Assembly (NCBI GenBank): GCA_025354865.1
Contig: JANXMB010000018.1
Coordinates: forward strand, 1 to 56,205
Reading direction: 5' to 3'
DNA: 56,205 nt
Source of the DNA: Acetobacteraceae bacterium
GTDB taxonomy: Bacteria > Pseudomonadota > Alphaproteobacteria > Acetobacterales > Acetobacteraceae
Shown: positions 1,013 to 39,946 of the stretch, piece after piece
How the letters are laid out: each line of letters opens with the position of its first letter
Position numbering within the stretch: the first letter of the stretch is position 1
Position numbers and translations under genes: made by a program
Notes under the pieces: model-generated
What the model was told of the DNA's origin: nothing
The model's database searches: none
The model's input: the letters and a program-made list of their open reading frames with translations, nothing else

Positions 1013-1822
1013 ATGAACGCACCGTTGAAACGTATCGTCCCGCCCGCCATCCGCGCCCGGAAAGGCGGCGAACCGATTGTCTGCCTCACCAGCTATGCGG
1101 CGTCCACCACCCGCTTGATCGACCCGCATGTCGATCTCATTCTGGTCGGGGATTCGCTGGCCATGACCATTTACGGCATGGAAAGCACCGTGGGCGTGAC
1201 CGTCGATACCATGATCGCGCATGGTCGGGCCGTTGCCAACGCCGCCAACCATGCCTGCGTCGTGGTGGATTTGCCGTTCGGATCCTACGAGGAATCCCCC
1301 GCCCAGGCCTTCCGCACCGCTGCTCGGGTCATGGCGGAAACCGGCTGCGCGGCGGTCAAGCTGGAGGGCGGCATCGAAATGGCGGAAACCATCCGCTTCC
1401 TCAGTGCGCGCGGCGTCCCGGTCATGGCGCATATCGGCCTGACCCCGCAATCGGTGAATGCGCTCGGCGGTTACGGCGTGCGCGGCCGCAACCCCGAGGA
1501 AGCGGCCGCCATCCTGGCCGACGCGATCGCGGTGGACGAAGCCGGCGCCTTCAGCGTCGTGATCGAAAAAACCACCGAGTCGCTCTCCCGCGAGATAACC
1601 CAGCGCATTGCCGCCCCAACGATCGGGATCGGTGCCTCGGTCGCCTGCGACGGGCAGATCCTGGTGATCGACGATGTCATCGGGCTATTCACCGCATTCC
1701 GCCCGAAATTCGTCAAACGCTATGCCGAGGTCGCGCAACCCATCGCCGCCGCCGCGCAAGCCTACGCGGCAGAGGTGCGGGCCCGCGCCTTCCCCGGGCC
1801 GGAGCATGTTTTCGGCCCCTGA
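1013..1822 (+). CDS. panB: 3-methyl-2-oxobutanoate hydroxymethyltransferase (ketopantoate hydroxymethyltransferase)
   Basis: PanB transfers a hydroxymethyl group from methylenetetrahydrofolate to 2-oxoisovalerate, the first committed step of pantothenate and CoA synthesis, in the cytoplasm. The 269-residue length is normal. The magnesium ligands appear as D47 (LVGDSLAM), D86 (VVVDLPF) and E118 (KLEGG), the catalytic Glu is E185 (VVIEK), and the APTIGIGA loop is at 201-208. The frame is open upstream of 1013 but that part is antisense to the DUF1028 gene, so the ATG giving [11 protein letters not shown] is preferred. The stop codon TGA at 1820-1822 overlaps the first bases of a dispersed repeat. 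No panC is adjacent. Confidence 0.96.
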
Positions 1823-1917
1823 GCGCGATGACCGAAGGTGGAATCACCGAAGGTCTGAATCGCGCGAACAAATCATAGATTGGATCGCGATACGTGAGCA
1901 AACGTATCGCGATCTAA
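1821..1917. repeat. Dispersed two-hairpin element, copy A
   Basis: This is a left plus right module copy of the element described at 5008-5111. The left module (about 1821-1862) nests GACC/GGTC around GGTG/CACC inside GCGCGAT/ATCGCGC. The right module is a perfect 13-bp inverted repeat, GATCGCGATACGT (1883-1895) and ACGTATCGCGATC (1902-1914), around a 6-base loop. The copy starts inside the panB stop codon and ends five bases before the convergent usg stop codon, so it fills the whole intergenic space and may act as a bidirectional 3'-end structure. Confidence 0.8.
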
Positions 1918-1921
1918 ACGA

Positions 1922-2182
1922 TCAGTGCAGGCGATAAACCGCATCGGTGTGGCGGAACGTTCCGGGCGAAATCAATTTGGCCGATGCAACGCGAACGGAA
2001 TGAAGCGGGCCTTCGATCTCCCGCTTCCAAAAATCCAGAAATTTCGTGAGTTCCGGATATTGCGGCGCGATGTCGAGGTGTTGCCACACATAGGTTTGCA
2101 ATACGTTCGGATGATCGGGCAACCGATAAAGAATCTCCGCAGTGGTCATGCGGTAGTCCTTCAATTGTAGCGCAAAACTCAT
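1922..2182 (-). CDS. usg: Usg family protein
   Basis: The 86-residue product matches the small alphaproteobacterial Usg family, with the signature TTAEILYRLPDHP, QTYVWQ, KFLDFWKREIEGPLHSVRVA and KLI in order. The family name comes from an ORF upstream of trp genes in other species; its biochemical role is not established. I chose the start at 2182 (MSFALQLKDY) because AAGGAAG lies about eight bases upstream and the family begins here; a longer reading from 2269 adds 29 residues with no family match. It converges on panB across the repeat at 1821-1917. Likely cytoplasmic and monocistronic. Confidence 0.82.
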   Translation of the reverse strand: MSFALQLKDYRMTTAEILYRLPDHPNVLQTYVWQHLDIAPQYPELTKFLDFWKREIEGPLHSVRVASAKLISPGTFRHTDAVYRLH

Positions 2183-2288
2183 GGCACTTTGCTTCCTTTG
2201 GCGATTGTCCGTTTTCCAAATGCCCGACCGAAATTGGCCCGGCATCCGAAGCATCGCTCGAAGTTCCACTGCGGTGCAATGAAAATAT

Positions 2289-2315
2289 ATTATATATCAG
2301 TAAGTTGGCACTCAA
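2289..2315 (-). promoter_or_regulatory. Candidate promoter for usg in an AT-rich patch
   Basis: Read on the minus strand, a perfect TATAAT (2289-2294) sits in an AT-rich stretch that stands out in this GC-rich window, with TTGAGT (2310-2315) 15 bases upstream. The spacer is shorter than the usual 16-18, so the -35 assignment is weak. It would give an untranslated leader of about 100 bases for usg. Confidence 0.3.
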
Positions 2316-2320
2316 TCTGG

Positions 2321-2374
2321 TCGATTGCTGCCGGCCACTCGATTGCTGCCGGCCGCTCGATTGCTGCCGGTGCG
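2321..2374. repeat. Three tandem 18-bp repeats
   Basis: Three head-to-tail units begin at 2321, 2339 and 2357. The core TCGATTGCTGCCGG is identical in all three; the last four bases are CCAC, CCGC and TGCG. They lie in the non-coding stretch between the AT-rich patch upstream of usg and the terminator of the NTF2-like gene. The 18-bp period keeps any reading frame open, but no convincing gene covers it. Confidence 0.85.
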
Positions 2375-2419
2375 CATTGGGGCAAGTGTTCGATCGCACC
2401 GATCCGCCCGCCGCATATG

Positions 2420-2456
2420 AAAAATGCCGCGCGCCCCTGTGCGGAACGCGCGGCAT
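2420..2456 (-). terminator. Rho-independent terminator of the NTF2-like gene
   Basis: Read on the minus strand, a perfect 10-bp stem (arms 2447-2456 and 2424-2433, ATGCCGCGCG and CGCGCGGCAT) with a 13-base loop is followed directly by a run of five T (2420-2424). It starts 20 bases after the stop codon of the gene ending at 2476. This is the clearest classical terminator in the window. Confidence 0.75.
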
Positions 2457-2475
2457 CGGTTTCGTTGCAAGCCGA

Positions 2476-2937
2476 TCAAACGATCTTGGTGGAGCACCGC
2501 GCCAACAAGTTCCAGGCCCCGTTCTGCTTCTGCCAGACCTGCAGAACGTGCAGATTGGCCGTGCTACGCTTGCCGTCGGCGACGGTTTCGCTTTCGCTCA
2601 TCCAGTGGAAACGCACCAGGGCCGTCGTGCCGCCGACGACCTTGACCCAGATGTCTTTGTTTTCAATCGAAATGACTTTCGATTTCGCGCTGGTGGCGTT
2701 GGTAACGAAAACGTCCCGATCTTCGACATGCGCGTCGGAGTGGCTGTAGCTCAGATCCTTCGCGCACATCGCGGTCAGCACCTTGGCATCCTTGGCGCGC
2801 TGGGCGTCGCGGAATGCCTCGACGCGCTTATGGACAGCGGTTTCTTCGGCCGTTGCCGCTTCGGAGTCCGATGGTAAAGCAGCCATCAGAGCAGCGAATA
2901 TCACGGGAAGCGCCAGATTGCGGCGATCGATATTCAT
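2476..2937 (-). CDS. Secreted NTF2-like / SnoaL-like protein
   Basis: The 153-residue protein starts with a cleavable signal peptide (MNIDRRNLALPVIFAALMAA, predicted cut after about residue 28) and then a single domain of NTF2-like pattern: an initial helix (VHKRVEAFRDAQRAKDAKVL), a strand with YSHSD, and C-terminal strands ending QVWQKQNGAWNLLARCSTKI. Such DUF4440/SnoaL-like domains are often periplasmic with unknown ligands. I chose the start at 2937, with GGAGG upstream; an in-frame ATG at 2952 lies on the wrong side of that ribosome-binding site. It follows a class II aldolase gene by 33 bases and the two may be co-transcribed. Confidence 0.75.
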   Translation of the reverse strand: MNIDRRNLALPVIFAALMAALPSDSEAATAEETAVHKRVEAFRDAQRAKDAKVLTAMCAKDLSYSHSDAHVEDRDVFVTNATSAKSKVISIENKDIWVKVVGGTTALVRFHWMSESETVADGKRSTANLHVLQVWQKQNGAWNLLARCSTKIV

Positions 2938-2970
2938 TGTCGTTTCCTCCATTTTTGTTGTTGGATCGGC

Positions 2971-3753
2971 TCAGTCTTTGTAGTCGGGTTCCTTACGGTC
3001 CAGGATGCGCTTCAGTGCGTCGAAGTGCCAATCGCAATTCGGACGCCCACCGTACAGGAACCGGTTGGCTTTATACTCGGAAAGCGTGGTATCGACGACA
3101 TCCTGCGGCAGATGCTTCAGCGGCCGGTTGGTCCACATCGCATACAACTGCACCTGGGCCACACGCTCGGCATAATACAGCCGGTCGTATGCCTCGGCCA
3201 CCGACTTGCCGACCGTTGCGATGCCGTGATTGGCCATCATCAGCACGGTCTTGGTGCCCAGCACGGTGGCAAGCCGAGCACCCTCGGCCGGATCGAAGGC
3301 GGGGCCGGTGTAGATTTCGTCGTAGGCGGTATGCATCATGGTGCCGAGTTCGGTCTGCCCGATCGCCAGGATCGACTGATCCTGCAACCGCGACAGGGCG
3401 CTGGCAAAGGGCATATGGGTGTGGAACACGGCGGCGGCATGGGCGGCATCGCGGTGGATCGGGGCGTGGATGCAGTAGGCCGAACGCTCGACCTCACCGG
3501 AGCCGGCGAGTTGGGTGCCGTCGTAGCCGATTTCCATCAGGCAGCTGGCGGTCACTTCCGACCAATGCAGGCCGAACGGGATTTGGTAGTAGCGGTCGTC
3601 GGTGCCGGGCACGCGCAGGGTGAAGTGGTTGAAAATGCCCTCGTTCAGCCCGTGCATCACCGCCAGCCGGTGCGCGGCGGCCAGATCCACCCGCGCCTGA
3701 CGGCGGGCAGCGTCGATATCCAGGTCCTTGGGTTGCAGCGATTCCAGCGGCAT
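2971..3753 (-). CDS. Class II aldolase/adducin family protein
   Basis: This is a 260-residue zinc-dependent class II aldolase-like protein. The zinc ligands are visible as H111 and H113 (AVFHTHMP) and H176 (MMANHGIAT), and NHFTLRVPG (42-50) is the phosphate/substrate-binding loop. The C-terminal tail (residues 200-260, ending LDRKEPDYKD) is typical of uncharacterised alphaproteobacterial members rather than of fuculose- or ribulose-phosphate enzymes, so the substrate cannot be named. A related but clearly distinct paralogue lies at 6129-6902. It is followed by the secreted NTF2-like gene in the same direction. Confidence 0.85.
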   Translation of the reverse strand: MPLESLQPKDLDIDAARRQARVDLAAAHRLAVMHGLNEGIFNHFTLRVPGTDDRYYQIPFGLHWSEVTASCLMEIGYDGTQLAGSGEVERSAYCIHAPIHRDAAHAAAVFHTHMPFASALSRLQDQSILAIGQTELGTMMHTAYDEIYTGPAFDPAEGARLATVLGTKTVLMMANHGIATVGKSVAEAYDRLYYAERVAQVQLYAMWTNRPLKHLPQDVVDTTLSEYKANRFLYGGRPNCDWHFDALKRILDRKEPDYKD

Positions 3754-3869
3754 GGCGAACTCCTTATTGTAGTAAGGTATGGGATCATTGGCCTCCCGCA
3801 GGGAAGCGTCAATTGGCCCCGGACGGCAGTCCCGGCTATCGTGCCGGCAATTCGAACCAGGAGCGGAAC

Positions 3870-4979
3870 ATGTCCTACCCCTTGCCCAATGCCGATCTGA
3901 AAAGCCTCGGATTCGCGTCGAAGCCTCTCGACCATCTGGATGCGCTGATCCGCAGCCATATTGCCGAGGGCCGCTACCCCGGCGCCCAGATCGCGCTCGC
4001 CCGGCACGGCCAACTCGCCCTTTTCCGCACCTACGGCGATGCTCGGATCGGGCGCGCTGCGGCCGACGATACGCTGTGGTTGTTGTTCTCCCAGACCAAG
4101 GTCCTGTGCATGGCCGGGCTGTGGGCCTTGGTCGAGGAAGGCAAATTGTCGTTCATGGACAAGGTCGCCGACCACCTGCCGGAATTCGCCTGCCGCGGTA
4201 AGGCCGATATCACCATCCACGAGGTCGCAACCCACCGCGCCGGCTTCCCGTCCAGCCATCTGGAGCGGGATGCATGGCTCGATCATGCGAAGATGCGGGC
4301 GCAGGTCTGCGATTTCTCCCTGGATTGGACCCCGGGATCGCGCATGGCCTACCACGGACGCAGCGCCCATCCGGTGTTGGCGATGGTAATGGAAGCCGTC
4401 ACCGGCGAGGATTTCCGCGACATTATCCATACCCGCGTCCTCGGGCCGCTCGGGTTGAACGACGACGTGCGGGTTGGCGTGCCGGCCGAGCAGCACGAAC
4501 GTTGCGCGGATATGTATTATAGCAAGGGCAGCGAGATGCCGTACGACAACAGCCCGGAACTGCGGCTGGCCGGACTGCCGCACGGCGGCGGGTTCGCCAC
4601 AGCGCGCGGCATGGCGGCGTTCTACCAGATGCTGCTGGGCAAAGGGCGGCTGGGCGATGCGCGGATATTCTCGCCTCGGCTGGTGGAATACGTCGCCCGC
4701 AACCACACCGGAGAGCTTGGCGACGGCACGATGGGCGGCATTCCGATGCACCGAGGGCTGGGTCCGCATGTGCGCGGGATGTCCGATCGTATTCGCGGGC
4801 TGGGCAGCAACGCCCACCCCGACACGTTCGGGCACGGCGGGGCGGGCACATCGTATTCCTGGGCCGATCCGGCCAGCGGCGTGTCGTTCACCTATTTGAC
4901 CAACAATGTGATGCCCGACCCCTTCCACTCCGCCCGTTTGGACCGTGTGGCGAATCTGGTGCACGCGTCGATCGATTGA
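3870..4979 (+). CDS. Serine hydrolase of the beta-lactamase / penicillin-binding fold (esterase-like)
   Basis: The 369-residue protein has the SxxK motif at S74-Q-T-K77, the second-motif tyrosine at Y161 (AYHGRS) and an HGG motif at 322-324 (FGHGGAGTSYSW), the class C beta-lactamase/EstB arrangement. There is no signal peptide, so it is more likely a cytoplasmic esterase or amidase than a true beta-lactamase. The start at 3870 is supported by CAGGAGCGG immediately upstream; a 57-base upstream extension has no support. It diverges from the aldolase gene with 116 bases between, and ends 28 bases before repeat copy B. Confidence 0.85.
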   Translation: MSYPLPNADLKSLGFASKPLDHLDALIRSHIAEGRYPGAQIALARHGQLALFRTYGDARIGRAAADDTLWLLFSQTKVLCMAGLWALVEEGKLSFMDKVADHLPEFACRGKADITIHEVATHRAGFPSSHLERDAWLDHAKMRAQVCDFSLDWTPGSRMAYHGRSAHPVLAMVMEAVTGEDFRDIIHTRVLGPLGLNDDVRVGVPAEQHERCADMYYSKGSEMPYDNSPELRLAGLPHGGGFATARGMAAFYQMLLGKGRLGDARIFSPRLVEYVARNHTGELGDGTMGGIPMHRGLGPHVRGMSDRIRGLGSNAHPDTFGHGGAGTSYSWADPASGVSFTYLTNNVMPDPFHSARLDRVANLVHASID

Positions 4980-5007
4980 GGGCCTTGCCCCATCCAGTCC
5001 CCGGCGC

Positions 5008-5111
5008 TAGAGCGCGATGACCGAAGGTGGAATCACCGGAGGTCTGAATCGCGCGAACAAACAACAGGTTAGATCGCGATACGTGAGCGAGAGCGAACGC
5101 ATCGCGCTCTA
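5008..5111. repeat. Dispersed two-hairpin element, copy B (reference copy)
   Basis: Perfect 12-bp terminal inverted repeats, TAGAGCGCGATG (5008-5019) and CATCGCGCTCTA (5100-5111), bound a 104-bp unit. Inside, the left module folds as a nested hairpin (GCGCGAT, GACC, GGTG, then CACC, GGTC, ATCGCGC) and the right module is a second hairpin with two mismatches. It contains no gene; an ATG inside it is in frame with the downstream reductase but lacks family similarity. It ends 10 bases before the ferredoxin-NADP reductase start and so sits in that gene's leader. Confidence 0.88.
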
Positions 5112-5121
5112 CGGGGGCGGG

Positions 5122-6132
5122 ATGGCTCAAGTTATCGAAACAGACGTCGCGATCGTCGGCGCCGGCCCGGTGGGGCTGTTCGCCGTGTTCGAGTTGGGAA
5201 TGCTGAAGCTGCCATGCGTGCTGATCGACGCGCTGGCGGATGTCGGCGGACAATGCGCCGCGCTGTATCCCGAAAAGCCGATTTACGACATTCCAGCGCA
5301 TCCGGCGATCGAAGCCGGCGCGTTGGTGGAAAAGCTCGAACAACAAATCGCGCCCTTCGCGGTGCCTCGGTTGCTGGGAAGGCGGGTGGAGAGTCTGACC
5401 GGCCAATCCGGCGCCTTCGTGCTGACCACCGATCTCGGCGACATCGTGCGCTGCAAGGCGATGGTCGTGGCGGCCGGGGCCGGGGCATTCGGCCCGAACC
5501 GCCCCCCGCTGGACGGGCTGCCGGCCTATGAGGCAACCGGCGCGGTGCAATATTACGTCAAGCAGCGCGAATCGTTTCGCGGCAAGCGGGTGGTGGTTGC
5601 CGGCGGCGGCGACTCGGCGGTGGATTGGGCGCTGGCTTTGAAGGACATCGCCCAGGTCTCGGTCGTGCATCGTCGGCCGAAATTCCGCGCTGCCCCCGAA
5701 ACCGCCGCCCAGTTGGACGCCGCCGCCGCCCGTGGCGAGATCGAGATGGTCATCCCCTACCAGTTGCATGCCCTGCACGGCGCGGACGGTGTTTTGACCT
5801 CGGTGGAAGTCGCGACCCTGAAGGGCGAGACCAAACATCTGCCCGCCGATGTGCTGCTGCCCTTCTTCGGCCTGTCGATGGACCTCGGCCCGATCGCCTC
5901 CTGGGGCCTGGAGCAGACGACGCATCACGTGAAGATCGATCCGGCCACCTGCCAGACCAGCATCCAAGGTGTTTTCGCGATCGGCGATGTCGCGACCTAT
6001 CCCGGCAAGCTCAAGCTAATCCTGCAAGGCTTCAGCGAGGCCGCGATGGCGGCGCACGCGATTTTCGCCGTTGTGCACCCCGACCAGGCCCTGCACTTCG
6101 AGTATTCGACCAGCAAGGGTGTGCCGGGCTAG
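5122..6132 (+). CDS. Ferredoxin--NADP(+) reductase, thioredoxin-reductase-like type
   Basis: The enzyme moves electrons between ferredoxin and NADP(H) using FAD. The 336 residues show the FAD-binding VGAGPVG (12-18), the DALADVGGQCAALYPEKPIYDIP block typical of this subfamily, and the NADP-binding GGGDSAVD (161-168). There is no redox-active CxxC in the NADP domain, which separates it from thioredoxin reductase. The FAD-closing GVFAIGDVATYPGKLKLILQ is in the C-terminal fifth. I placed the start at 5122 (MAQVIETDVAIVGAG); a longer reading runs into the repeat. Its last four bases overlap the end of the convergent aldolase gene. Confidence 0.92.
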   Translation: MAQVIETDVAIVGAGPVGLFAVFELGMLKLPCVLIDALADVGGQCAALYPEKPIYDIPAHPAIEAGALVEKLEQQIAPFAVPRLLGRRVESLTGQSGAFVLTTDLGDIVRCKAMVVAAGAGAFGPNRPPLDGLPAYEATGAVQYYVKQRESFRGKRVVVAGGGDSAVDWALALKDIAQVSVVHRRPKFRAAPETAAQLDAAAARGEIEMVIPYQLHALHGADGVLTSVEVATLKGETKHLPADVLLPFFGLSMDLGPIASWGLEQTTHHVKIDPATCQTSIQGVFAIGDVATYPGKLKLILQGFSEAAMAAHAIFAVVHPDQALHFEYSTSKGVPG

Positions 6133-6902
6133 GTGGCGTATTCCGGTTCCTCCCGGTCCAGCACCCGGCGCCAAGCATCGAGGTGCAGGCGCGCATCGAG
6201 CTTTTCGCCCCAAGGCCCGGACCAGCGACGCCGCATCGCATCCGGCAGCGTCCGCAGCTTCTGCCCCGTCGCCACCGCCGTCATCTGATACATCGCCGTC
6301 CGCTCGGCGATAAACAGCTCGTCGAATGCATCGTGTACCGTCGGCCCGACCACGGTGACGCCGTGCCCGCCCATTACCAGGGTGGATTTATCGCCCAACG
6401 CCGCCGCCAGCCGATCACCCTCGGCGGTACTATCGGCCGGCGCCACGGCCTCCAGGTCGTAGGCCACCCGATCGTTCAGCAGCAGATTGTTGTGATGCGC
6501 CAGGATCAGCGCCGGTTCCTCCAGCAACGACAAGGCGGTGAGGTAGCGCGGATGCACATGCAGCACGCAGGTCGCGGCGGGATTTTGCAGATGGATGCGG
6601 GCGTGGATGAAGAACGCGACCTTGCGCAATTCCCCGCTTCCCCGCAGCACCTTGCCATCCAGGTCGCAGACGATCAGCGACCCCGCCGTCAGTTCCTGGA
6701 ACAGATAGCCGCGCGGATTGATCAGGAATGTCGGTTTATCGGCGGGGTCGCGCTGCGGCAGCATCAGGGAGTTGTGGTTGCCGATCTGCTCGTTCCAGCC
6801 AAACCGAGCGGCGATGCGGAAGACGGCGGCCATGTCGCGGCGGAGGCGCCATTCTTCGTCCTCGGCCGTCGAGGACGACAGCGCTTGCACCAATGCGGCC
6901 AT
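6129..6902 (-). CDS. Class II aldolase/adducin family protein (second paralogue)
   Basis: The 257-residue protein has the zinc ligands H115 and H117 (VLHVHPRY) and H180 (MGGHGVTVV), with GNHNSLMLP (41-49) as the substrate loop and a C-terminal DREEPEYAT that echoes the tail of the paralogue at 2971-3753. These two paralogues differ widely in sequence, so they probably act on different substrates, neither of which is identifiable. The gene converges on the reductase gene with a 4-bp overlap of stop regions and lies 17 bases downstream of the DUF2336 gene, possibly as an operon. Confidence 0.86.
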   Translation of the reverse strand: MAALVQALSSSTAEDEEWRLRRDMAAVFRIAARFGWNEQIGNHNSLMLPQRDPADKPTFLINPRGYLFQELTAGSLIVCDLDGKVLRGSGELRKVAFFIHARIHLQNPAATCVLHVHPRYLTALSLLEEPALILAHHNNLLLNDRVAYDLEAVAPADSTAEGDRLAAALGDKSTLVMGGHGVTVVGPTVHDAFDELFIAERTAMYQMTAVATGQKLRTLPDAMRRRWSGPWGEKLDARLHLDAWRRVLDREEPEYAT

Positions 6903-6919
6903 GGCAAAACTCCGACGGT

Positions 6920-8029: not shown

Positions 8030-8140
8030 GCGACCCAACATTCTGTATGGTTGCTCGGCGCATCATGACGTGCGGAGATTAATCAAAGGTTAACGCGGCG
8101 GAATTTTTTTCGCCGACCGACCGCAACGGGACAGACAATC

Positions 8141-9355: not shown

Positions 9356-9385
9356 GCATTTGCAATCGGGGGCGGGACGGGCCAC

Positions 9386-10009: not shown

Positions 10010-10013
10010 TAGG

Positions 10014-10112
10014 CAGCGCGATGACCGGAGGTGGCAACGCCGGAGGTCTGAATCGCCTGCGCAAACAAGCAGCGCGATGACCGGAGGCGGCACGCCGAAG
10101 GTCTGAATCGCC
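10014..10112. repeat. Dispersed two-hairpin element, copy D: two left modules in tandem
   Basis: Two left modules (about 10014-10056 and 10072-10112) follow each other without any right module. Each keeps GCGATGACC and GGTCTGAATCGCC, but the inner stem differs: GGTG with CGCC in the first and GGCG with CGCC in the second, compared with GGTG/CACC in copies A-C. The changes keep base pairing. Located directly after the LolA-like gene. Confidence 0.82.
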
Positions 10113-11019: not shown

Positions 11020-11035
11020 CCACCGGCCGATGCGA

Positions 11036-19192: not shown

Positions 19193-19458
19193 CAGTGGCC
19201 TGCTAGAGCGCGATGACCGCAGGTGGAATCACCGGAGGTCTGAATCGCCCGACCGATAAAAGGTTAGATCGCGAGACGTGAGCGGGCGCGAACGCATCGC
19301 GATCTAGCAGGCTGCTGAATAACTCTTCTCGACACCCTGCCACGAAAGATTGAGTCGCAGCGCACTGACCTCACGAAACATTCGGTCGCCCAAGCGGCAT
19401 CTGCGATTCTTTTTGACCAATCGTTGCCGGCCCGCCGGACTTTTTCAGCAGCCTGCTA
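19188..19458. mobile_element. MITE-like structure: three 15-bp ends in alternating orientation
   Basis: The end sequence TTCAGCAGCCTGCTA occurs at 19444-19458, an almost identical form (two differences) at 19192-19206, and its exact reverse complement TAGCAGGCTGCTGAA at 19305-19319. The pair 19305-19319 / 19444-19458 is a perfect 15-bp inverted repeat around 124 bp that encode nothing convincing, the layout of a non-autonomous transposable element or of insertion sequence ends with the transposase lost. The pair 19192-19206 / 19305-19319 encloses copy C of the two-hairpin element. The 343 bases from 19153 to 19495 contain only these repeats. Confidence 0.65.
19204..19306. repeat. Dispersed two-hairpin element, copy C
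   Basis: Ends TAGAGCGCGATG (19204-19215) and CATCGCGATCTA (19295-19306) match those of copy B with one difference. It carries both modules: left with GACC/GGTC and GGTG/CACC, right with GATCGCGA and TCGCGATC arms. Its edges share the bases TA with the 15-bp ends of the flanking MITE-like structure on both sides. Confidence 0.85.
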
Positions 19459-19498
19459 GAGCGCGAGACGTGAGCGGGCGCGAACGCATCGCGATCTA
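19457..19498. repeat. Dispersed two-hairpin element, copy E: right module only
   Basis: A 42-bp right module whose 35 bases from 19464 on (GCGAGACGTGAGCGGGCGCG and following) are identical to the right module of copy C 193 bases upstream, so it looks like a recent duplication. It begins directly at the 15-bp end of the MITE-like structure. Its last bases CTA (19496-19498) form the TAG stop codon of the convergent zinc-ribbon gene. Confidence 0.8.
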
Positions 19499-22465: not shown

Positions 22466-23337
22466 GCCGTCCGAGCATTGCCGCGATTGCGGTGTTGGTT
22501 GTTTTGGCGATCGTCGCCAATGCGAGCCTGTTTACCGTGCACCAGACGCAACGGGTGCTGATTGCGCAGTTCGGGCAGGTGGTGAACACCATCGATACGC
22601 CGGGCCTGCATACCAAACTGCCCTTCGTGCAGGATGTCATCAGCTTCGACCGCCGCCTGCTGAACGTCGAATTGCCCGGGGAGGAAGTGATCCTGGGCGA
22701 CCAACGCCGCCTGATCGTGGACAGTTTCACCGTCTTCCGCATCAGCGATCCGCTGAAGTTCTATCAGGCCATCGGCCCGATGCCGGACGCCATTCGGGGC
22801 CGGTTGAACTCCATCGTCACCTCGTCCCTGCGGCGGGTGTTGGGTAAGAATTCGCTGCTGGACGTGTTGTCGGCCGACCGGGAACGGATCATGGCGACGA
22901 TCCGCGATCAGGTGAACGCCGACATGGCGAATTTCGGCGTCTCCATCGAGGACGTGCGCATTCGTCGCGCCGATTTGCCGGAAGAAAATACCCAAGCGAT
23001 TCTGTCCCGCATGCAATCGGAACGCCAGCGCATCGCTGCCCAGGCGCGTGCGGAAGGTGCCGAAGCCTTCGCCCGCATTCGCGCGGATGCGGAACGGGAA
23101 CGCACGGTGCTGCTGGCGGAAGCCAGAGCCACGTCCGATCGTCTACGCGGCGAGGGCGAGGGCGAGGCCACCGGCATCTATGCCGCAGCCTTCGGCAAAG
23201 ACCCGCAATTCTTCGCGATCTGGCGCACGCTGCAAAGCTACCGCGACGTATTCGATGCGGGTGGAGCACGATTGGTGCTAACCCCGGACAACGAGTTCCT
23301 GCATTATCTGCAAGCGGCCCCTCCGGCCACACCCTAG
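22462..23337 (+). CDS. hflC: FtsH protease modulator HflC
   Basis: The 291-residue partner of HflK has an N-terminal membrane anchor (IAAIAVLVVLAIVANASLFT, residues 6-25), the SPFH domain starting HQTQRVLIAQFGQVVNTIDT, and the C-terminal helical part with AEGEGEA-like residues (RLRGEGEGEATGIYAAAFG) and PQFFAIWRTLQSYRDVF. It overlaps hflK by four bases, so translation is coupled. Its stop codon TAG (23335-23337) is also the first bases of the tandem hairpins that separate it from degP. Confidence 0.95.
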   Translation: MSRPSIAAIAVLVVLAIVANASLFTVHQTQRVLIAQFGQVVNTIDTPGLHTKLPFVQDVISFDRRLLNVELPGEEVILGDQRRLIVDSFTVFRISDPLKFYQAIGPMPDAIRGRLNSIVTSSLRRVLGKNSLLDVLSADRERIMATIRDQVNADMANFGVSIEDVRIRRADLPEENTQAILSRMQSERQRIAAQARAEGAEAFARIRADAERERTVLLAEARATSDRLRGEGEGEATGIYAAAFGKDPQFFAIWRTLQSYRDVFDAGGARLVLTPDNEFLHYLQAAPPATP

Positions 23338-23456
23338 TGGGCCGATCCTAACGCTTGAGTCTCAAGCGTTAGGTGAATCGGCCCACCAAATCAAAGCCTA
23401 GTGGGCCGATCCCGATGGCAGCATCCTATGCCGTCGGGTGAATCGGCCTACTAAAA
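23335..23456. repeat. Two tandem long hairpins with shared outer arms and different inner arms
   Basis: Unit 1 (23335-23390): outer arms GTGGGCCGAT (23337-23346) and ATCGGCCCAC (23377-23386), inner arms CCTAACGCTTGAG (23347-23359) and CTCAAGCGTTAGG (23361-23373), all perfect, with a 1-base loop. Unit 2 (23399-23456): the same outer arms with one change (23401-23410 and 23442-23451) but inner arms CCCGATGGCA (23411-23420) and TGCCGTCGGG (23429-23438), which pair with one wobble. A third unrelated 8-bp hairpin follows at 23467-23490. The arrangement would stabilise or end the hflKC transcript before degP. Confidence 0.85.
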
Positions 23457-31840: not shown

Positions 31841-31861
31841 GCGACCGGTCGGCCGTCCGGA

Positions 31862-33341: not shown

Positions 33342-33360
33342 ACCCCCGGGTTATTTATCC
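33336..33360. terminator. Convergent hairpin between ygfZ and the peptide-binding protein gene
   Basis: GGATAAACCC (33336-33345) and GGGTTATTTATCC (33348-33360) form an imperfect inverted repeat that includes both stop codons of the convergent genes. It is followed by an A/T-rich stretch in each direction rather than a clean T run. A shared bidirectional terminator is plausible. Confidence 0.4.
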
Positions 33361-34943
33361 AACCAAATGTCTTCCCACCGCCAGCCGTTGTAAATGCTGT
33401 TGACCATGATCGTCATATTTTTGACGTAGGGTTGCCAGCAGGCGCCGCCGACATCGTGATAGATGATCGGCCGTACAACATCGTCGGCCAGTTTTCGCTC
33501 GATCGCCCACACCATTGCCCGCCGCTTGGCGAAATCGCTTTCCATCGACTGGGCCTCGAAGTCTTTCTCCAACTCCTTGTTGCAATAATTGGTATAATTT
33601 CGCAACGAGCCGCAGGCATAGTTTTCGTAGAAGTTCTGATCGGGATCGTCGAGCGAACTGCCGGTCAGATTGAGGCCGATCGCAAATTGTTTTTTGAATA
33701 CCCGAGCGTAATATTGGGGCGTGTCGGCGATGTCGAGTTCGGCGTTGATGTAGACTTTTTTCAGCTGATCGTTGAGGATTAGGGCAGGATCGCGAAACGA
33801 ATTGATATCGCGGGTAAAGATACGCGTCTCTAACGGTTTGTCCGGGCCGTAGCCCAATTTCTTCATAATCGTTCGGGCTTCCTCGCGATTCTTTTCGATA
33901 TCGGGTCCGTAACCGGTCAGCGTTGCCAACACATCGGGCGGCATGCCCCATACCCCGTCCGGCGGCGGCAGCATGGCACCGCCGATGCCGGCTTGTCCTT
34001 CGTTGATAATATCGTTGAAGGATTTGCGATCCAGCGCCAGTGCCAGAACTTTGCGAATTTCTGGATTGTCGAAGGGTGGCGCGTCGCGGTTGATCACCAG
34101 ATTGGTGCTGACATTCGTCCGTCGCATGACGCATTGCGCGGCGGGCGCCTGGGTGGCAATTTCCTTCGCAATCGAAACGGTCACGTCGGTGGGATAGGTC
34201 ATATCGAATTTGCCGGCGACAAAGCCTAGCGTGCGGGTGCCTCGGTTGGGAACGATTTGGTAGACGATACCGTCGAGGTACGGCAGTCCGGGCTTCCAAT
34301 AATCCGGATTGCGCTCCAGGCGCACGATCTCGTTCAACCGGTATTCCACGAAGCGGAACGGTCCGGTACCGATCGGTTTGGTGCGCATGGCCGCCGAGGG
34401 CACATGGCACGGATAGACTGGCGACCAGCCGGATGCGAGCAGGGCGATGAACGACGGTTGCCGGCGGTGCAGATGGAAGGTCACGCGTTGCGGCCCGTCG
34501 ACGGTTATTTCCTTCAGGTTGGCGAACCAGGCCTGCCGCGGGCTTTTACGGATTTTCCCAGGTTCCAGGCCAGAAACCATATCCCAGGTGCATTTCGCAT
34601 CCGCACTGGTGAAAGGTTTGCCGTCGTGCCATTTCACGCCTTCGCGCAGCACGAAAGTCAGCGCGGTGCCGTCTTTGTTCCACTCCCATTTCGTTGCCAA
34701 TTCGGGCACGATAGTATCCAGCGTATGGCGCGGAATATGTTGGTCGAACAGCACGAGATTGTTGAACATCGGCATGAAGGGGATGACGACGGACGCCGTG
34801 CCTTCTTCCTGAATCGACGGGCTGGGCGGGGTGTCGATATGCGGCAGGGTCAAGATGCCGCCGCGCTTCTGGGCTACAGCCGGCACGGCGGCAAGCAGCA
34901 CGCCGGCCGCGATGGCGATGGCGCATCGGAGCAATGGAACCAT
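33351..34943 (-). CDS. ABC transporter substrate-binding protein, peptide/nickel type (SBP_bac_5)
   Basis: The 530-residue periplasmic protein has a signal peptide (residues 1-24, ending VPAVA) and a family 5 extracellular solute-binding domain: WKWNKDGT-like LATKWEWNKDGTALTFVLRE, VKWHDGKPFTSADAKCTWDM (105-125), GTGPFRFVEYRLNEIVRLER and NPDYWKPGLPYLDGIVYQIV. Family members bind oligopeptides, nickel, dipeptides or opines. No permease or ATPase gene lies next to it here, so the import partners must be elsewhere. GGGAGG precedes the ATG. The last 50 residues carry GACWQPYVKNMTIMVNSIYN. Confidence 0.9.
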   Translation of the reverse strand: MVPLLRCAIAIAAGVLLAAVPAVAQKRGGILTLPHIDTPPSPSIQEEGTASVVIPFMPMFNNLVLFDQHIPRHTLDTIVPELATKWEWNKDGTALTFVLREGVKWHDGKPFTSADAKCTWDMVSGLEPGKIRKSPRQAWFANLKEITVDGPQRVTFHLHRRQPSFIALLASGWSPVYPCHVPSAAMRTKPIGTGPFRFVEYRLNEIVRLERNPDYWKPGLPYLDGIVYQIVPNRGTRTLGFVAGKFDMTYPTDVTVSIAKEIATQAPAAQCVMRRTNVSTNLVINRDAPPFDNPEIRKVLALALDRKSFNDIINEGQAGIGGAMLPPPDGVWGMPPDVLATLTGYGPDIEKNREEARTIMKKLGYGPDKPLETRIFTRDINSFRDPALILNDQLKKVYINAELDIADTPQYYARVFKKQFAIGLNLTGSSLDDPDQNFYENYACGSLRNYTNYCNKELEKDFEAQSMESDFAKRRAMVWAIERKLADDVVRPIIYHDVGGACWQPYVKNMTIMVNSIYNGWRWEDIWLDK

Positions 34944-35050
34944 GGTCGTCCTCCCGTCGTGCCGGGTTATCCCAGTCTGGACGGAAGGCTGCGGGAGATT
35001 CGGGCGGGATGCAAGCCGGGATGCGGCTGCGTCCCCGGCCTGCCGTGGAT

Positions 35051-35356
35051 CTAATGCCCCGGATTGGCTTTCGCGAACGCCGCTTTCTGCTCAGCCGTCG
35101 CTTCCTTTTGGAACTTCGCCTGCCAGTCCTTATACGGCATGCCGTAGACGATTTCCCGCGCATCGGGATCAGCCAAGGGAATGCCGCGTTCCTCGGCGCT
35201 CTCGCGATACCAGCGGCTGAGGCAATTCCGGCAGAAGCCGGCGAGGTTCATCATGTCGATGTTCTGCACATCGGTGCGCGTCTGCAAATGGTCGCGCAAG
35301 CGGCGGAAGGCGGCGGCTTCCAACTCGATCTGGGTGGCGGCGTCGATGTCCTGCAT
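35051..35356 (-). CDS. DUF1244 family protein
   Basis: The 101-residue protein has the family core LEAAAFRRLRDHLQTRTDVQ, NIDMMNLAGFCRNCLSRWY (32-50, C42-R-N-C45) and ADPDAREIVYGMPYKDWQAK. DUF1244 is a small helical family, widespread in proteobacteria, with an invariant CxxC, and of unknown function. CAGGAG precedes the ATG by nine bases. It stands alone between the binding-protein gene and the divergent glycerate kinase gene. Confidence 0.92.
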   Translation of the reverse strand: MQDIDAATQIELEAAAFRRLRDHLQTRTDVQNIDMMNLAGFCRNCLSRWYRESAEERGIPLADPDAREIVYGMPYKDWQAKFQKEATAEQKAAFAKANPGH

Positions 35357-35462
35357 GGCTCAGTCTCCTGAAAACACAGATAGATGGGCAGACACGGGGA
35401 AGATGGTGCGCGGCGGCCGGTTCCGCCATACTTAAACCGACCGGAACGGAGAATGATAGCCG

Positions 35463-36740
35463 ATGCAGGTGGATGACGGTAGGGCGCGCCTGACGCTGCG
35501 CGCACTGTTCGATGCGGCCGTGGCAGCCGCCGATCCCCGGGTGGTGCTCGCTGCGCATCTGCCGCCGAAACCCACGCGCGGGCGCGTCGTGGTGGTCGGG
35601 GGCGGCAAATCCGCCGCCGTGATGGCCGCCGCGTTGGAAGACGCCTGGCCGGACGTGCCGATGGAAGGTCTGGTGGTCACCCGCTACGGCCACGCGGTGC
35701 CGACAAAACGGATCGAGGTCATCGAGGCATCCCACCCCGTGCCCGACGCCAACAGCGAAATCGGCGCCCAACACCTGCTCGACCGGGTGCGCGGCCTGAC
35801 CGCCGACGACCTTGTTATCGCGCTGATGTCCGGCGGCGCCTCCGCCTTGCTGGCCGCCCCCGCGCCGGGGCTGACGCTCGCGGACAAGCAGGCGATCAAC
35901 AAGGCACTGCTGGCCTGCGGTGCCAATATTACCGAGATGAACGCCGTGCGAAAGCATCTCTCCGCCATCAAAGGCGGCCGTCTCGCCGCCGCAGCCGCCC
36001 CCGCTCGGGTCCTCACCCTGGCGATCAGCGACGTGCCGGGGGACGATCCTGCGGTCATCGGGTCCGGCCCGACCGTGCCCGACTCCACAACTTTTGCGGA
36101 AGCCCGAGCGCTGATCGGGCGCTATGGCATTGTGCCGTCGCCTGCGGTGGCGGCGCGGCTGGCGCAGGACGCGGACGAAACGCCGAAGCCCGGCAGCCTA
36201 CCGCACACCGCATTCCGCATGATCGCAACCCCGCTGATGGCACTGCAAGCCGCCGCGAAAACGGCCGAGAGCCTGGGATTCACCCCGCTGATCCTGGGCG
36301 ACGCGCTGGAAGGGGAAGCCCGGGAGATGGGCATCGTCATGGCCGGCATCGCCCGATCCATCCGCGACCACGGCTACCCGGTGAAAGCCCCGGCGGTGCT
36401 CTTGAGCGGGGGGGAAACCACCGTGACCCTCGGGGCCGGCCCGTACGGGCATGGCGGGCGCAACACCGAATTCCTGGCCGGACTCGCCATCGCGCTGAAC
36501 GGCGCGCCGGGGATCTGGGGCATGGCGGGGGACACCGACGGCGTCGATGGCATGGATGAGGTCGCCGGCGCCATTCTCGCGCCCGACACCATCGCCCGCC
36601 TGCGCGCCAAGGGGCTGGATGCCCGCGCCATGCTGACCGGGCACGACAGCCACACGTTGTTTGGATCGGTAGGTGACTTAATCGTCACAGGCCCTACACT
36701 GACCAATGTTAACGATATCAGAGCCGTCCTGATCGGCTGA
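35463..36740 (+). CDS. Glycerate 2-kinase (MOFRL family)
   Basis: The enzyme phosphorylates glycerate to 2-phosphoglycerate, linking glyoxylate, tartrate or serine breakdown to glycolysis. The 425 residues have the N-terminal domain with RVVVVGGGKSAAVMAAALED and SGGASALLAAPAPGLTLADK, EMNAVRKHLSAIKGGRLA, and the C-terminal MOFRL domain with LLSGGETTVTLGAGPYGHGG and GDTDGVDGMDEVAGAI. It is often labelled hydroxypyruvate reductase (TtuD), an old misnomer. The pyruvate kinase gene begins 12 bases after its stop, so both probably share a transcript. Confidence 0.93.
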   Translation: MQVDDGRARLTLRALFDAAVAAADPRVVLAAHLPPKPTRGRVVVVGGGKSAAVMAAALEDAWPDVPMEGLVVTRYGHAVPTKRIEVIEASHPVPDANSEIGAQHLLDRVRGLTADDLVIALMSGGASALLAAPAPGLTLADKQAINKALLACGANITEMNAVRKHLSAIKGGRLAAAAAPARVLTLAISDVPGDDPAVIGSGPTVPDSTTFAEARALIGRYGIVPSPAVAARLAQDADETPKPGSLPHTAFRMIATPLMALQAAAKTAESLGFTPLILGDALEGEAREMGIVMAGIARSIRDHGYPVKAPAVLLSGGETTVTLGAGPYGHGGRNTEFLAGLAIALNGAPGIWGMAGDTDGVDGMDEVAGAILAPDTIARLRAKGLDARAMLTGHDSHTLFGSVGDLIVTGPTLTNVNDIRAVLIG

Positions 36741-36752
36741 AGGAACCCGCTT

Positions 36753-38186
36753 ATGGCCATGCAACCGAAACTGCACCGCCGCCGCCGCACGAAGATCATC
36801 GCCACCCTCGGCCCGGCCAGCGGCACGATCGAGGTGCTGACGCGCCTGTTCCAGGCCGGCGCCGACGTGTTCCGGCTGAATTTCTCGCACGGCGATCACG
36901 CCAGCCACGCCGCCCGCTTCGCCATGATCCGCGTGCTGGAGGCGAAGTTCGACCGACCGATCGGCATCCTCTGCGACGTGCAGGGGCCGAAACTGCGGGT
37001 CGGGCGGTTTGCCGGCGGGCGGGTACACCTGCAAACCGGCAGTACCCTGCGCCTCGACCTCAATCCCACACCGGGCAACACCCAGCGGGTGAACCTGCCG
37101 CATCCCGAAATCGTCGAAGCCGCGTCGATCGGTGCGACGCTGCTGCTGGACGACGGCAAATTGCGCCTGCGGGTGACCCGCAAACATGCCGACGCCCTGG
37201 AAACCGAGGTTGTGGTCGGCGGCCCGCTCTCGGACAACAAGGGCGTCAACGTCCCCGACATCGTGCTGCCGATTCCCGCGCTGACGGCAAAAGATCGCGC
37301 CGATCTGGAATTCGCCTGCCAGCACGGTGCCAACTACATCGGGCTGTCCTTCGTGCAGCGGCCGGAAGATGTGGCCGAGGCCAAAGCCCTGATCGCCGGC
37401 CGCGCCTGGACCATGGTGAAGCTGGAAAAGCCGCAAGCCTTGGACAATCTGGAAGAAATCATGGCCCTGACCGACACGGTCATGGTCGCGCGCGGCGATC
37501 TCGGCGTGGAACTGCCGCCGGAGGAAGTGCCCCTGGCGCAAAAGCGCATCGTCCGCTTGGCCCGTCAGTTGGGCAAACCCGTGGTGGTGGCGACGCAGAT
37601 GCTCGAAAGCATGATCTCCGCCCCGGCACCGACCCGAGCCGAGGCGTCGGATGTGGCGACGGCGGTGTTCGATGGGGCGGATGCGGTGATGCTGTCGGGC
37701 GAAACCGCCGCCGGCCAATACCCCTACGAAGCCGTCAACATCATGGATCGCATCGTTGCCAGGGTCGAACAGGACCCGGGCTGGCGGGCGATGATCGATG
37801 CCTCCCGCGGCGACCCCGAAGCCACCGCCGCCGGGGCGATCGCCGCCGCTGCTCGGCAGGTCGGGCACACGATCGGGGCGAAGGCGATCGTGGCCTTCAC
37901 CGCATCGGGCGGCACCGCACTGCGCGTCGCCCGCGAACGCCCGGACAGCCCGATCGTCGGCCTGACGCCGGAACTGGACACGGCACGGCGCATGGCCGTG
38001 GTCTGGGGCGTGCACGCCGTCGTCACGCCGGATGTGCATTCCATGACCGAAGCCGTTTCTCGGGCGGAGCAGGCGACGAGAATAGCGGGTTTCGCGGTGC
38101 GTGGGGATGAGATCGTGGTGACGGCGGGCGTGCCGTTCGGACGGGCCGGCACGACGAACGCGCTGCGGGTCGCGACAGTGAAGTAA
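36753..38186 (+). CDS. pyk: Pyruvate kinase
   Basis: Pyruvate kinase turns phosphoenolpyruvate and ADP into pyruvate and ATP. The 477 residues contain RTKIIATLGPASG (12-24), FRLNFSHGDHASH (40-52), CDVQGPKLRVG, the substrate lysine loop MVKLEKPQAL, the metal-binding MVARGDLGVELPPEEVPLAQ, and VVATQMLESMI near residue 280, followed by a C-terminal allosteric domain. It pairs with the upstream glycerate 2-kinase: glycerate to 2-phosphoglycerate, then enolase (elsewhere) and this enzyme give pyruvate. Confidence 0.97.
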   Translation: MAMQPKLHRRRRTKIIATLGPASGTIEVLTRLFQAGADVFRLNFSHGDHASHAARFAMIRVLEAKFDRPIGILCDVQGPKLRVGRFAGGRVHLQTGSTLRLDLNPTPGNTQRVNLPHPEIVEAASIGATLLLDDGKLRLRVTRKHADALETEVVVGGPLSDNKGVNVPDIVLPIPALTAKDRADLEFACQHGANYIGLSFVQRPEDVAEAKALIAGRAWTMVKLEKPQALDNLEEIMALTDTVMVARGDLGVELPPEEVPLAQKRIVRLARQLGKPVVVATQMLESMISAPAPTRAEASDVATAVFDGADAVMLSGETAAGQYPYEAVNIMDRIVARVEQDPGWRAMIDASRGDPEATAAGAIAAAARQVGHTIGAKAIVAFTASGGTALRVARERPDSPIVGLTPELDTARRMAVVWGVHAVVTPDVHSMTEAVSRAEQATRIAGFAVRGDEIVVTAGVPFGRAGTTNALRVATVK

Positions 38187-38223
38187 TACCGGTCGGCCGC
38201 ATGAAAGTCGGAGATTCGGTCGG

Positions 38224-38244
38224 CGCGTGTAAAAGCAACACGCG
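38224..38244. terminator. Hairpin downstream of pyk
   Basis: CGCGTGT (38224-38230) pairs perfectly with ACACGCG (38238-38244) around AAAAGCA, 38 bases after the pyk stop. No T run follows, so it is a weak terminator candidate. Confidence 0.3.
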
Positions 38245-38304
38245 AGGGGTCAGGCCCGGCGCCATCGGCTTTATTCCCGGCTCCAGACACGCAAGGAGCC
38301 GACC

Positions 38305-38790
38305 ATGCCATTCCGCTGCATCCCGATCGCCCCAGGGATCGCCGACCGCTTCCGCCAATCCAGTGTGGACGACGGGGGCAACCCGATCCAACATCGGGTC
38401 CTCGACACACCCGGCGCACCCTGCCGACAATGCCTGCGCGACGCCGCCGCCGGGGAGGAAATGCTCCTGCTATCCTGGCATTTGCCCCGCCCCTTGGGCA
38501 TCTACTGGACGCCAAGCCCGATCTTCCTGCATGCCGAGGCCTGCACACCCTTCGATGCACCGGACACGATCGCACCGATCGTGCGCAACCGGCTGGTTTC
38601 GGTCCGCGCCTACGATCGGGAGGATATGTGTCTCTACGACCTCGGCGATGTCGGGGAGGGTGCGGTCGTCGACACGCTGTTGCAGCGCGCGCTGGACGAT
38701 CCGCGCACCGCTTTCGTCAACATCCACACCGCTCGACCCGGCTGCCTGCTGTGCCGGGTGGAGCGGGTCGAGCCGAGCCTGCCGGGGTAG
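38305..38790 (+). CDS. DUF1203 family protein
   Basis: The 161-residue protein follows the DUF1203 pattern: MPFRCIPIAPGIADRFRQSS at the start, PCRQCLRDAAAGEEMLLLSW (residues 39-58), GIYWTPSPIFLHAEACTPFD and VNIHTARPGCLLCRVERV at the end. Two Cys pairs, C40/C43 and the CLLC near residue 150, are conserved and could bind a metal, but no function is known. AAGGAG lies six bases before the ATG. It converges on the crotonase gene. Confidence 0.88.
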   Translation: MPFRCIPIAPGIADRFRQSSVDDGGNPIQHRVLDTPGAPCRQCLRDAAAGEEMLLLSWHLPRPLGIYWTPSPIFLHAEACTPFDAPDTIAPIVRNRLVSVRAYDREDMCLYDLGDVGEGAVVDTLLQRALDDPRTAFVNIHTARPGCLLCRVERVEPSLPG

Positions 38791-38808
38791 GCCCGGTTCA
38801 AGCAGCAA

Positions 38809-39588
38809 TCAGGCCGGCGGCAGGGGCCGTCCCTTGCGGGCGATGAAATCCGGAAACGCGGTTTCTGCCCGCGCGCCGGCCATGACATTGGCGGCATAAT
38901 CGACCTCCGCCGCGTATTGGCCGGCAAGGTCCTGCCCCAGTTGCTTCAGCATCAACGCTTTCACGCCCATCACCGCACCGCGATGGCTGCCGGCAATCAT
39001 GCGGCCCAGCCACATGGTTTTGGCCCGCAACTCCGCCCGCGGCACCAGATGATTGAGCAAGCCGATGCGATAGGCTTCCTCGGCTTCGACCACCCGAGCG
39101 GAGAACAGAAGCTCCTTGGCGATGGGCCAGCCGACCTGGTTGGGTAGGCTCCAGGTGCTGTTGATGCGTCCGTATGCCGCTGCGAGGAAGCGGAATTTCG
39201 TCCCCTCGCAGCCCACGCGCATATCCAGCGACGACGACAGCACCCCTGCCCCGCCATAGGCCAACCCGTTCATCATGCCGATGGTCGGCTTGGTGCAGGC
39301 GCCCACGTCGAAGGCGGAATGGCCGGAACCCATGGCTGCCTGCTGTTCGAGCGTATACAGCTTGTCGTCCGAGCGCTGCTCGTGAATGTCGCCGCCGGCC
39401 GAGAACGCCTTTTCGCCGGCCCCGGTGAAGACGATGCAACCGACGCTGTCGTCGGCTTCGAAGCCATGCATCGCGTGGTGCATCTCGCGCACGAGTTGGC
39501 GGTTCATCGCGTTGAGGACTTCGGGTCGGTTGAGGGTGACGATCCCGACGCCGTCTTCGACCTCGGTCAGGATGCATTCGTATTCCAT
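38809..39588 (-). CDS. Enoyl-CoA hydratase/isomerase (crotonase) family protein
   Basis: The 259-residue crotonase-fold protein keeps the oxyanion-hole segments EKAFSAGGDIHE (59-70) and NGLAYGGAGVLSSSLDMRV (107-125). Where typical hydratases have the catalytic Glu in a PE-containing loop, this protein has FLAAAYGRINSTWSLPNQVG (134-153), so neither usual catalytic Glu is obvious. It may be an isomerase, decarboxylase or thioesterase-type member. TAGGAGG precedes the ATG. It lies downstream of mccB-mccA on the same strand but 383 bases away; leucine breakdown needs a methylglutaconyl-CoA hydratase, so a link is possible but unproven. Confidence 0.82.
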   Translation of the reverse strand: MEYECILTEVEDGVGIVTLNRPEVLNAMNRQLVREMHHAMHGFEADDSVGCIVFTGAGEKAFSAGGDIHEQRSDDKLYTLEQQAAMGSGHSAFDVGACTKPTIGMMNGLAYGGAGVLSSSLDMRVGCEGTKFRFLAAAYGRINSTWSLPNQVGWPIAKELLFSARVVEAEEAYRIGLLNHLVPRAELRAKTMWLGRMIAGSHRGAVMGVKALMLKQLGQDLAGQYAAEVDYAANVMAGARAETAFPDFIARKGRPLPPA

Positions 39589-39762
39589 CGGTTCCTCCTA
39601 TTTTTTGCAGATCGGTTCGTTGGCTATGGCTCGGCTGCGGCCCCTGCTGGGGCGGCTATGGCGGTGCGCCGCCAGCCGCCAGCGGCCAACCTTGCGCGAA
39701 TCGGCGCGAATCGATGGACAAACGACAACCTTAGATGGTTTTTAAAATGTCATACACCTATA

Positions 39763-39782
39763 GGTTGCATATCGATGTAACC
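39763..39782. promoter_or_regulatory. Candidate operator upstream of the crotonase gene
   Basis: GGTTGCAT and ATGTAACC flank ATCG, a 20-bp near-palindrome with one mismatch, in an AT-rich patch 175 bases upstream of the crotonase start. Size and symmetry fit a TetR-type site, such as those controlling acyl-CoA genes, but no regulator gene is nearby. Confidence 0.3.
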
Positions 39783-39858
39783 CTCGGTATGTTTTCCCCA
39801 TCGAAGCCGACCAAGGACGCAATCATGCTCCCCAAACACTTTCCAGCCCGCTCCGCTG

Positions 39859-39946
39859 TAGCCTGCGATCCCCTCGCTCTCGCTCACATCGCCCGCGCTA
39901 CCCCTTTGTTGGGTCGTGCGATGCAGACCCTCGATCAGCGCGCTCT
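39859..39946. repeat. Dispersed two-hairpin element, copy F: decayed, reversed
   Basis: Compared with the reverse complement of copy B, this stretch keeps TCGCTCTCGCTCAC (39874-39887), GGTCGTGCGATGCAGACC (39912-39929, against TCGCGCGATTCAGACC) and CAGCGCGCTCT at the end, with a gap of about 12 bases and many substitutions. The order right module then left module shows the opposite orientation to copies A-C. Confidence 0.55.

Follow-up and report, generated by a model that had tools for sequence, protein, structure and literature searches.

The 56,205-nucleotide contig JANXMB010000018.1 of an Acetobacteraceae bacterium (assembly GCA_025354865.1), referred to below as the window, carries six copies of a short element built from a left and a right hairpin. 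The family behind them is large, keeps its structure and has moved. With moderate confidence, we read the element as a non-autonomous unit resembling miniature inverted-repeat transposable elements (MITEs), which duplicates a target TA, is moved in trans and has structurally constrained hairpins. The repeat is abundant and shapes the ends of genes in a group of relatives of the acetic acid bacteria. Its species-specific versions, in which one strand of a stem changes with the other, form a natural series that bears on how a fold is retained, and on how such repeats are moved without a repetitive extragenic palindrome (REP)-associated tyrosine transposase (RAYT).

Copy number and distribution

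The window (contig C121 in our numbering) is part of a 4.76-Mb draft genome of 190 contigs with a listed completeness of 99.25%. When up to three mismatches are allowed, a 21-base pattern taken from the left module occurs at 98 + 98 places genome-wide compared to 1 + 3 for the reversed control, and the matches are therefore not due to chance. An original prediction, made from the window alone, had proposed a REP-like or bacterial interspersed mosaic element (BIME)-like family kept for its structure and perhaps moved by a RAYT, and had suggested covariance-model searches of this genome and its relatives. These searches returned many further copies, in both orientations. The model of the full element (R1) was derived from 17 full copies, of which three (A, B and D) are in the window and match by construction; it gave at least 149 matches genome-wide among the 150 that were scored out of 3292 candidates. 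Row L049, misplaced in an early alignment, was left out.

The element census covered 106 stretches around matches (414,916 bases, ∼415 kb), in which a profile search found 168 left modules, 81 on the plus and 87 on the minus strand. They make up, together with right hairpins (L and R for left and right), 131 elements of varied layout: LR 72, L 33, LL 9, LLL 6, LLLR 3, LLLL 3, LLR 2, R 2, and LRLR 1, the last consisting of two elements with one CTAG in common. Complete elements are at least 53 bp long, commonly ∼103 bp, and longer with tandem units. Tandem left units have a period of ∼55–62 bp and may multiply by recombination or slippage. Two tandem left-hairpin arrays (G000, C10:4-170 and C188:16-122) adjoin contig ends, so array lengths in the draft may be underestimated. 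The nearest copy differs by at most three edits for 21 of 49 full-length LR copies, and by at most six edits for 38, a near-identity that points to recent spread.

A model of the left hairpin alone (R2) was built from 50 modules hand-picked for diversity out of 293 (202 distinct), with truncated or odd rows excluded. It is positive in 21 of the 33 genomes of the genus (E 0.001), with counts per genome from 1 to at least 150. The 21-base pattern matched 13 of 59 relatives, including the genome itself, all within the genus. The other 26 genera gave no match, and several single matches of this pattern look like chance and lie in look-alike, probably coding DNA. A pattern of the inner left hairpin matched at least 85 stretches titled Acetobacteraceae, Acidisphaera, Rhodospirillales, Alphaproteobacteria or Proteobacteria, and the matches listed include the isolate Acidisphaera sp. 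S103 and one metagenome-assembled genome (MAG) named Asaia bogorensis. An exact 45-base pattern had no match in the genome contig collection. A strict exact pattern of the single-hairpin form matched none of 240 genomes of the class, which counts against wide spread, though the pattern is strict and also fails to match the genome of origin. Copies B and L234 had no match in plasmids, and the one matching stretch in viral contigs is seemingly a MAG contig already counted, so plasmid and viral carriage were both rejected.

The covariance models of Rfam 15 gave no match at gathering score across the window and none at E up to 1 in positions 4950–5150, an absence by which a known RNA family was ruled out. 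No description of this repeat was found in Rfam or in the open-licence literature, a scope outside which most subscription papers fall.

Structure and compensatory change

The complete element reads, in order, target TA, GAGC, one to four left hairpins (five in the relative G025), spacer, right hairpin, GCTC or GATC, and TA. The left hairpin has a 7-bp outer stem, a 4-bp middle stem, a 3×3 internal loop GNA/GNA, a 4-bp inner stem, a GAAT loop and a 3-nt bulge TGA. Its sequence is conserved, and loops and bulge are kept across species besides the stems. The spacer is rich in CAAACAA, and the right hairpin is more variable in sequence with its pairing kept. Both outer ends read inward as approximately TAGA-C--GATG, forming an imperfect, short terminal inverted repeat; in other genomes both ends read approximately TAGARCNNGATGA inward, as measurable in 30 of 108 modules.

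Stems differ between species in a paired fashion. The outer stem is GCGCGAT/ATCGCGC in this genome, GCGGGAT/ATCCCGC in G010 and G026, GCGTGAT/ATCACGC in G025, and GCATGAT/ATCATGC in JAFKFJ. The middle stem is GACC/GGTC, with CGCC/GGCG in G001 and CGGC/GCCG in G010. The inner-stem series that the original prediction had noted in the window, GGTG/CACC, GGTG/CGCC and GGCG/CGCC, is present, its last two members both lying within copy C. Over 49 distinct rows of the left hairpin, 95.8% of cells pair. Both sides have changed in 49 of 735 cells, spread over 7 of 15 pairs, compared to at most three cells with slid partners, and the observed values were reached by 0 to 4 of 500 shuffles, which ignore common ancestry. 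The 17 closest copies alone show no covarying cell, and the signal emerges only once copies that have diverged, and those of other species, are included. The left hairpin is thus maintained by compensatory change.

The right hairpin is also maintained in this way, less strongly. Scored within the genome in the best of 16 common registers, its pairing is 0.900, whereas 500 arm swaps average 0.847 and reach at most 0.873; both sides have changed in 31 of 638 cells. Both hairpins, read on the written strand, have more G-U than A-C cells (62 vs 35 on the left in three sets, 30 vs 17 on the right), which weakly favours a single strand, RNA or DNA, as the relevant form.

Peptide coding and termination were also considered. 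The left hairpin can be read as ATGACCGNAGGTGG, but coding would not account for its conservation, because N, the free base, falls at a second codon position and amino acids differ after several of the compensated changes. An intrinsic terminator was rejected by eye, as neither hairpin is followed by a T-run.

Insertion sites

Nine places were compared with relatives, and at five the element is missing from them. The comparison left out L386, L387 and L402 (a different sequence or a missing second flank), L392 (entire region missing), L369 and L401 (unalignable), and L368 (left flank only). The element of window copy C is missing in 9/9 aligned relatives and that at C18:19396 in 6/6. Copy A is missing in G008 and G015, two further relatives being unalignable across the place. 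The element at C18:5450 is missing in G015, with other sequence in G008, and that at C79:4640 is missing in G026 and G010, with other sequence in G008 and G015.

One site could be followed base by base. At C18:19396 the empty junction reads GGGACGCTCC-TTA-GGCCG in G008 and CGACCGCTCC-TTA-AGCCG in G001, and the filled site in this genome reads GGGACGCTCC-TTA-GAGC ... GATC-TTA-AGCCG, with TTA on both sides of the element versus once in the relatives. The flanks of other copies suggest that TA duplication is general. Among recognised ends of the 131 elements, a pyrimidine precedes the left TA in 50 of 66 and a purine follows the right TA in 50 of 53, giving the consensus YTAR; the base before TAG is C in 30, T in 20, G in 9 and A in 7 of the 66.

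The element is thus short, non-coding and multicopy, with imperfect short terminal inverted repeats and a target-site duplication at the site read base by base, as in MITEs. A transposase acting in trans would cut YTAR and duplicate the TA. Enzymes of the IS630 or IS5/IS427 type act in this way.

Two of the compared gaps hold other palindromic sequences in a relative. At C18:5450, G028 carries a sister family (L385) of the same plan in opposite orientation, with the core GAGCGTGATCGCCTGAGGTTGA...TCAACCTCGGGCGTGAATCACCC present twice and followed by a right hairpin. At the place of window copy B, the gap in G001 (L351) holds an unrelated palindrome, CCGTCATGGTCGGGC... / ...GCCCGACCATGACGG. Such gaps, and the fact that other repeats abut at CTAG, would fit a process in which permissive gaps accumulate various palindromes and recombination between gaps, not a transposase, accounts for most of the spread; the TA ends and the location at stop codons would then reflect such gaps. 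We consider this quite improbable, since the precise TA-duplicated junction and the YTAR preference indicate enzymatic cleavage at TA.

Position relative to genes

Elements often sit at the ends of genes. Only 10 of the 131 elements lie inside predicted genes, though 88.9% of bases are genic, and a predicted stop codon overlaps an element end in 51. These figures and the neighbour counts that follow are approximate, as the rough gene caller missed the pantoate-transferase open reading frame (ORF) at 653–1822 of the window. For the 114 elements with two neighbours, 58 of 141 stop ends lie within 10 bp, versus 4 of 87 start ends, and 40 of these elements are found between convergent genes. Between tandem genes, the element is oriented with the genes in 32 cases and against them in 29. 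Insertion at the TA of a stop codon may be tolerated because the first bases of the element would restore a stop.

Adjacency to stop codons, conservation of the left-hairpin loops, bulge and stems across species, and the G-U excess are also what a structured RNA element would show, one that spread, serves the cell at mRNA 3′ ends as a stabiliser, an attenuator or a protein-binding site, and is kept by host selection. We hold this to be unlikely. Close species do not have the insertion places in common, the predicted functions of the ten ORFs that neighbour window copies are unrelated, and a transcribed cis element would hardly be expected to take both orientations almost equally between tandem genes. 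The G-U excess itself is modest and its cells are not independent. On the MITE-like reading, the hairpins may be kept since the fold, be it in a transcript or in single-stranded DNA, would matter to how the element moves or how it stays harmless at mRNA 3′ ends.

Search for the mover

The suggested RAYT fared poorly as the mover. The family is short, palindromic and extragenic, with tandem and mixed layouts, and an excerpt of PMC3733652 describes stop codons supplied by REP termini, all of which would suit a REP/BIME family moved by this IS200-type tyrosine transposase. However, the RAYT profile (PF01797, Y1_Tnp) has no match in the genome, while the same profile is positive in 5 of 14 control genomes. 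It does match in five of the 33 genomes of the genus (G005, G006, G012, G019 and G024), all of them without a left-hairpin match at E 0.001, and 21 of the 28 genomes without PF01797 have such matches. The probability of so clean a split by chance is ∼0.003 by arithmetic from the counts, uncorrected for kinship. For the seven Y1_Tnp loci, no left module was among the matches listed even with E values up to 10. Neither GTAG nor CGTC is present as a constant tag at one end. Single-strand transposition of the IS200 type is not known to leave a TA duplication in YTAR, so the duplication is itself unlike the work of such an enzyme. RAYT origin is largely refuted and we reject it as very improbable. 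What stands of the prediction is a dispersed, modular and palindromic family with compensated stems, for which past movement is now supported.

Several points weigh against a MITE-like element moved in trans. No transposase tied to the element was found in a search that covered DDE_3 among the DDE families; the genome has two partial DDE_3/IS630 loci, neither bearing the ends of the element, and an IS630 partner within this genome was rejected on these grounds. A scan of 1.19 Mb of fetched DNA with strict end motifs, judged by eye, revealed no transposase enclosed by a left and a right end. This end-to-end scan gave ten rows, several of them two strands of one place, which by eye are ordinary chromosomal reading frames. 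The inverted ends match each other within a copy no better than between genomes (6.8/10 versus 6.9/10, 30 of 108 modules usable), and the internal hairpin is conserved more strongly than a plain MITE requires. Base-by-base reading of the TA duplication comes from one site, where the repeated bases are TTA. The relatives read offer no clean empty site for window copy B, and C18:4159, C79:6932 and C79:3342 gave no judgeable comparison.

Related repeats and known systems

Similar repeats occur on rhizobial plasmids. A rhizobial repeat used as a query matched 270 plasmid records, and a 113-base Bradyrhizobium copy matched 275, of which 114 had at least 80% coverage. In nine plasmid copies that were read, eight start with YTA-RAGC, seven have an AAACAA spacer (L404 has a different one), six contain a second YTA-RAGC and six end with GCTYTA-R. 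They fold as a left and a right hairpin except for L412, which has no clear right hairpin. In 6/9 the left end coincides with the stop of an annotated coding sequence (CDS), and in L405 and L408 a facing CDS stops at the right end too. Ends, spacer and two-hairpin plan are thus common to most of these copies and the present element, whereas the left-hairpin sequence is unrelated (with an AAAAGTG...CGGTTTT core) and tandem left units were not seen in the nine copies.

We take the rhizobial copies to be probably of the RIME class. The name reportedly stands for Rhizobium intergenic mosaic elements (Osteras 1995). RIME consist of two palindromes in ∼105 bp and are intergenic repeats of rhizobia. 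Measured against this definition, two palindromes and an intergenic position are present here, and the host is not a rhizobium. The RIME class is cited in an excerpt of PMC2573895.

It is possible, and in our view rather doubtful, that all of these form one two-hairpin superfamily extending from Acetobacteraceae to rhizobia, defined by a YTA-RAGC start, a lineage-specific left core, a CAAACAAAG-type spacer, a free but paired right hairpin and a GCTYTA-R end. Such a superfamily would combine compensated sequence turnover with insertion at stop-codon TA, and would need a single-strand fold for movement. It would then represent a structure-guided kind of MITE. If the rhizobial link holds, one old element class underlies separately described alphaproteobacterial repeats.

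Other known repeats resemble the element in part. The MITEs RUP of Streptococcus pneumoniae, Nezha and NEMIS/Correia, compared without sequences, are likewise ∼100 bp long and folded, with inverted ends, a target duplication and an excess at gene ends. RUP, Nezha and NEMIS/Correia duplicate TA. In contrast to them, the present element has no partner insertion sequence that was found, and its internal hairpin covaries. RUP is thought to move by IS630-Spn1, according to part of PMC3049150. The same partial source describes pneumococcal BOX as modular, with one module in variable number, as here; BOX, again compared without sequences, repeats the inner B of A-B-C, whereas here it is the terminal left hairpin that repeats, every ∼55–62 bp. 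REP/BIME families with RAYT have extragenic palindromes and mixed layouts in common with the element, but differ from it in their RAYT, in its TA duplication and longer two-hairpin unit, and in the GTAG/CGTC tag that it lacks. The Bru-RS palindromes of Brucella are, like the present element, alphaproteobacterial palindromic repeats, a likeness by description and without sequence comparison. IS711 of Brucella duplicates the TA of YTAR and prefers palindromic repeats, as stated in an extract of PMC2266754, and thereby offers a precedent for the type of enzyme; according to the same extract it is restricted to its genus.

Copies in the window

All six sites of the original prediction are real in that R1 matches each of them, with A, B and D matching by construction, at 1820–1916, 5009–5111, 10013–10111, 19205–19306, 19455–19497 and, reversed, 39859–39946. 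The predicted layouts held for copies A and B (left plus right), E (right only) and F (reversed and decayed), while C and D had been swapped: C is left plus left and D left plus right.

Copy A (1820–1916, plus strand; reading, fold and R1) comprises a left hairpin at 1821–1867, a spacer and a right hairpin at ∼1881–1916. Folding confirmed the predicted perfect 13-bp pairing of its right hairpin, which forms a clean predicted stem containing GATCGCGATACGT/ACGTATCGCGATC. Its ends supply the stop codons of two facing ORFs, the pantoate-transferase-like ORF 653–1822 (TGA at 1820–1822; Pfam PF02548) and the minus-strand ORF 1914–2456 (CTA at 1914–1916), which has no Pfam match. Copy B (5008–5111, plus strand; reading, fold and R1) starts with TA and has a left hairpin at 5010–5056, a spacer and a right hairpin at ∼5069–5111 that ends with TA. 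Copy C (10014–10112, plus strand) consists of tandem left hairpins at 10014–10060 and 10070–10112 and has no right hairpin. Copy D (19204–19306, plus strand) starts with TA, followed by a left hairpin at 19206–19252 and a right hairpin at ∼19265–19306. Copy E (19457–19498, plus strand) is a lone right hairpin, a near copy of that of D; C, D and E were each supported by reading, R1 and nhmmer. On the plus strand, A, B, D and C fold better than their shuffles, with z-scores of −7.90, −4.53, −3.53 and −3.20, respectively. Folds are weak for E (z −1.56, 15/200 shuffles as good) and for F on the minus strand (−0.33, 66/200). Copy F (39859–39946, minus strand) retains a decayed left and right hairpin, the inner part of the left one being lost. 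The covariance model finds it (R1 38.6 bits, E 6.9e-8) and the nhmmer module scan did not recover it, which marks it as a decayed relic.

Other repeats lie close to the family. One of these is palindromic and dispersed, has ends resembling CTAGTGGTCCGATCC and is seen in L004, L005 and L031, and in a related form at 23312–23412 of the window. It has ten end matches in the 415 kb and adjoins the two-hairpin element at a common CTAG at several loci. Between copies D and E, a 150-bp insert (19307–19456), which is flanked on each side by TA and has the inverted ends GCAGGCTGCTGAA / TTCAGCAGCCTGC, represents a different repeat, which apparently entered at the CTAG of an element edge. It had no plasmid match, and its ends recur on contigs C164, C70 and C100.

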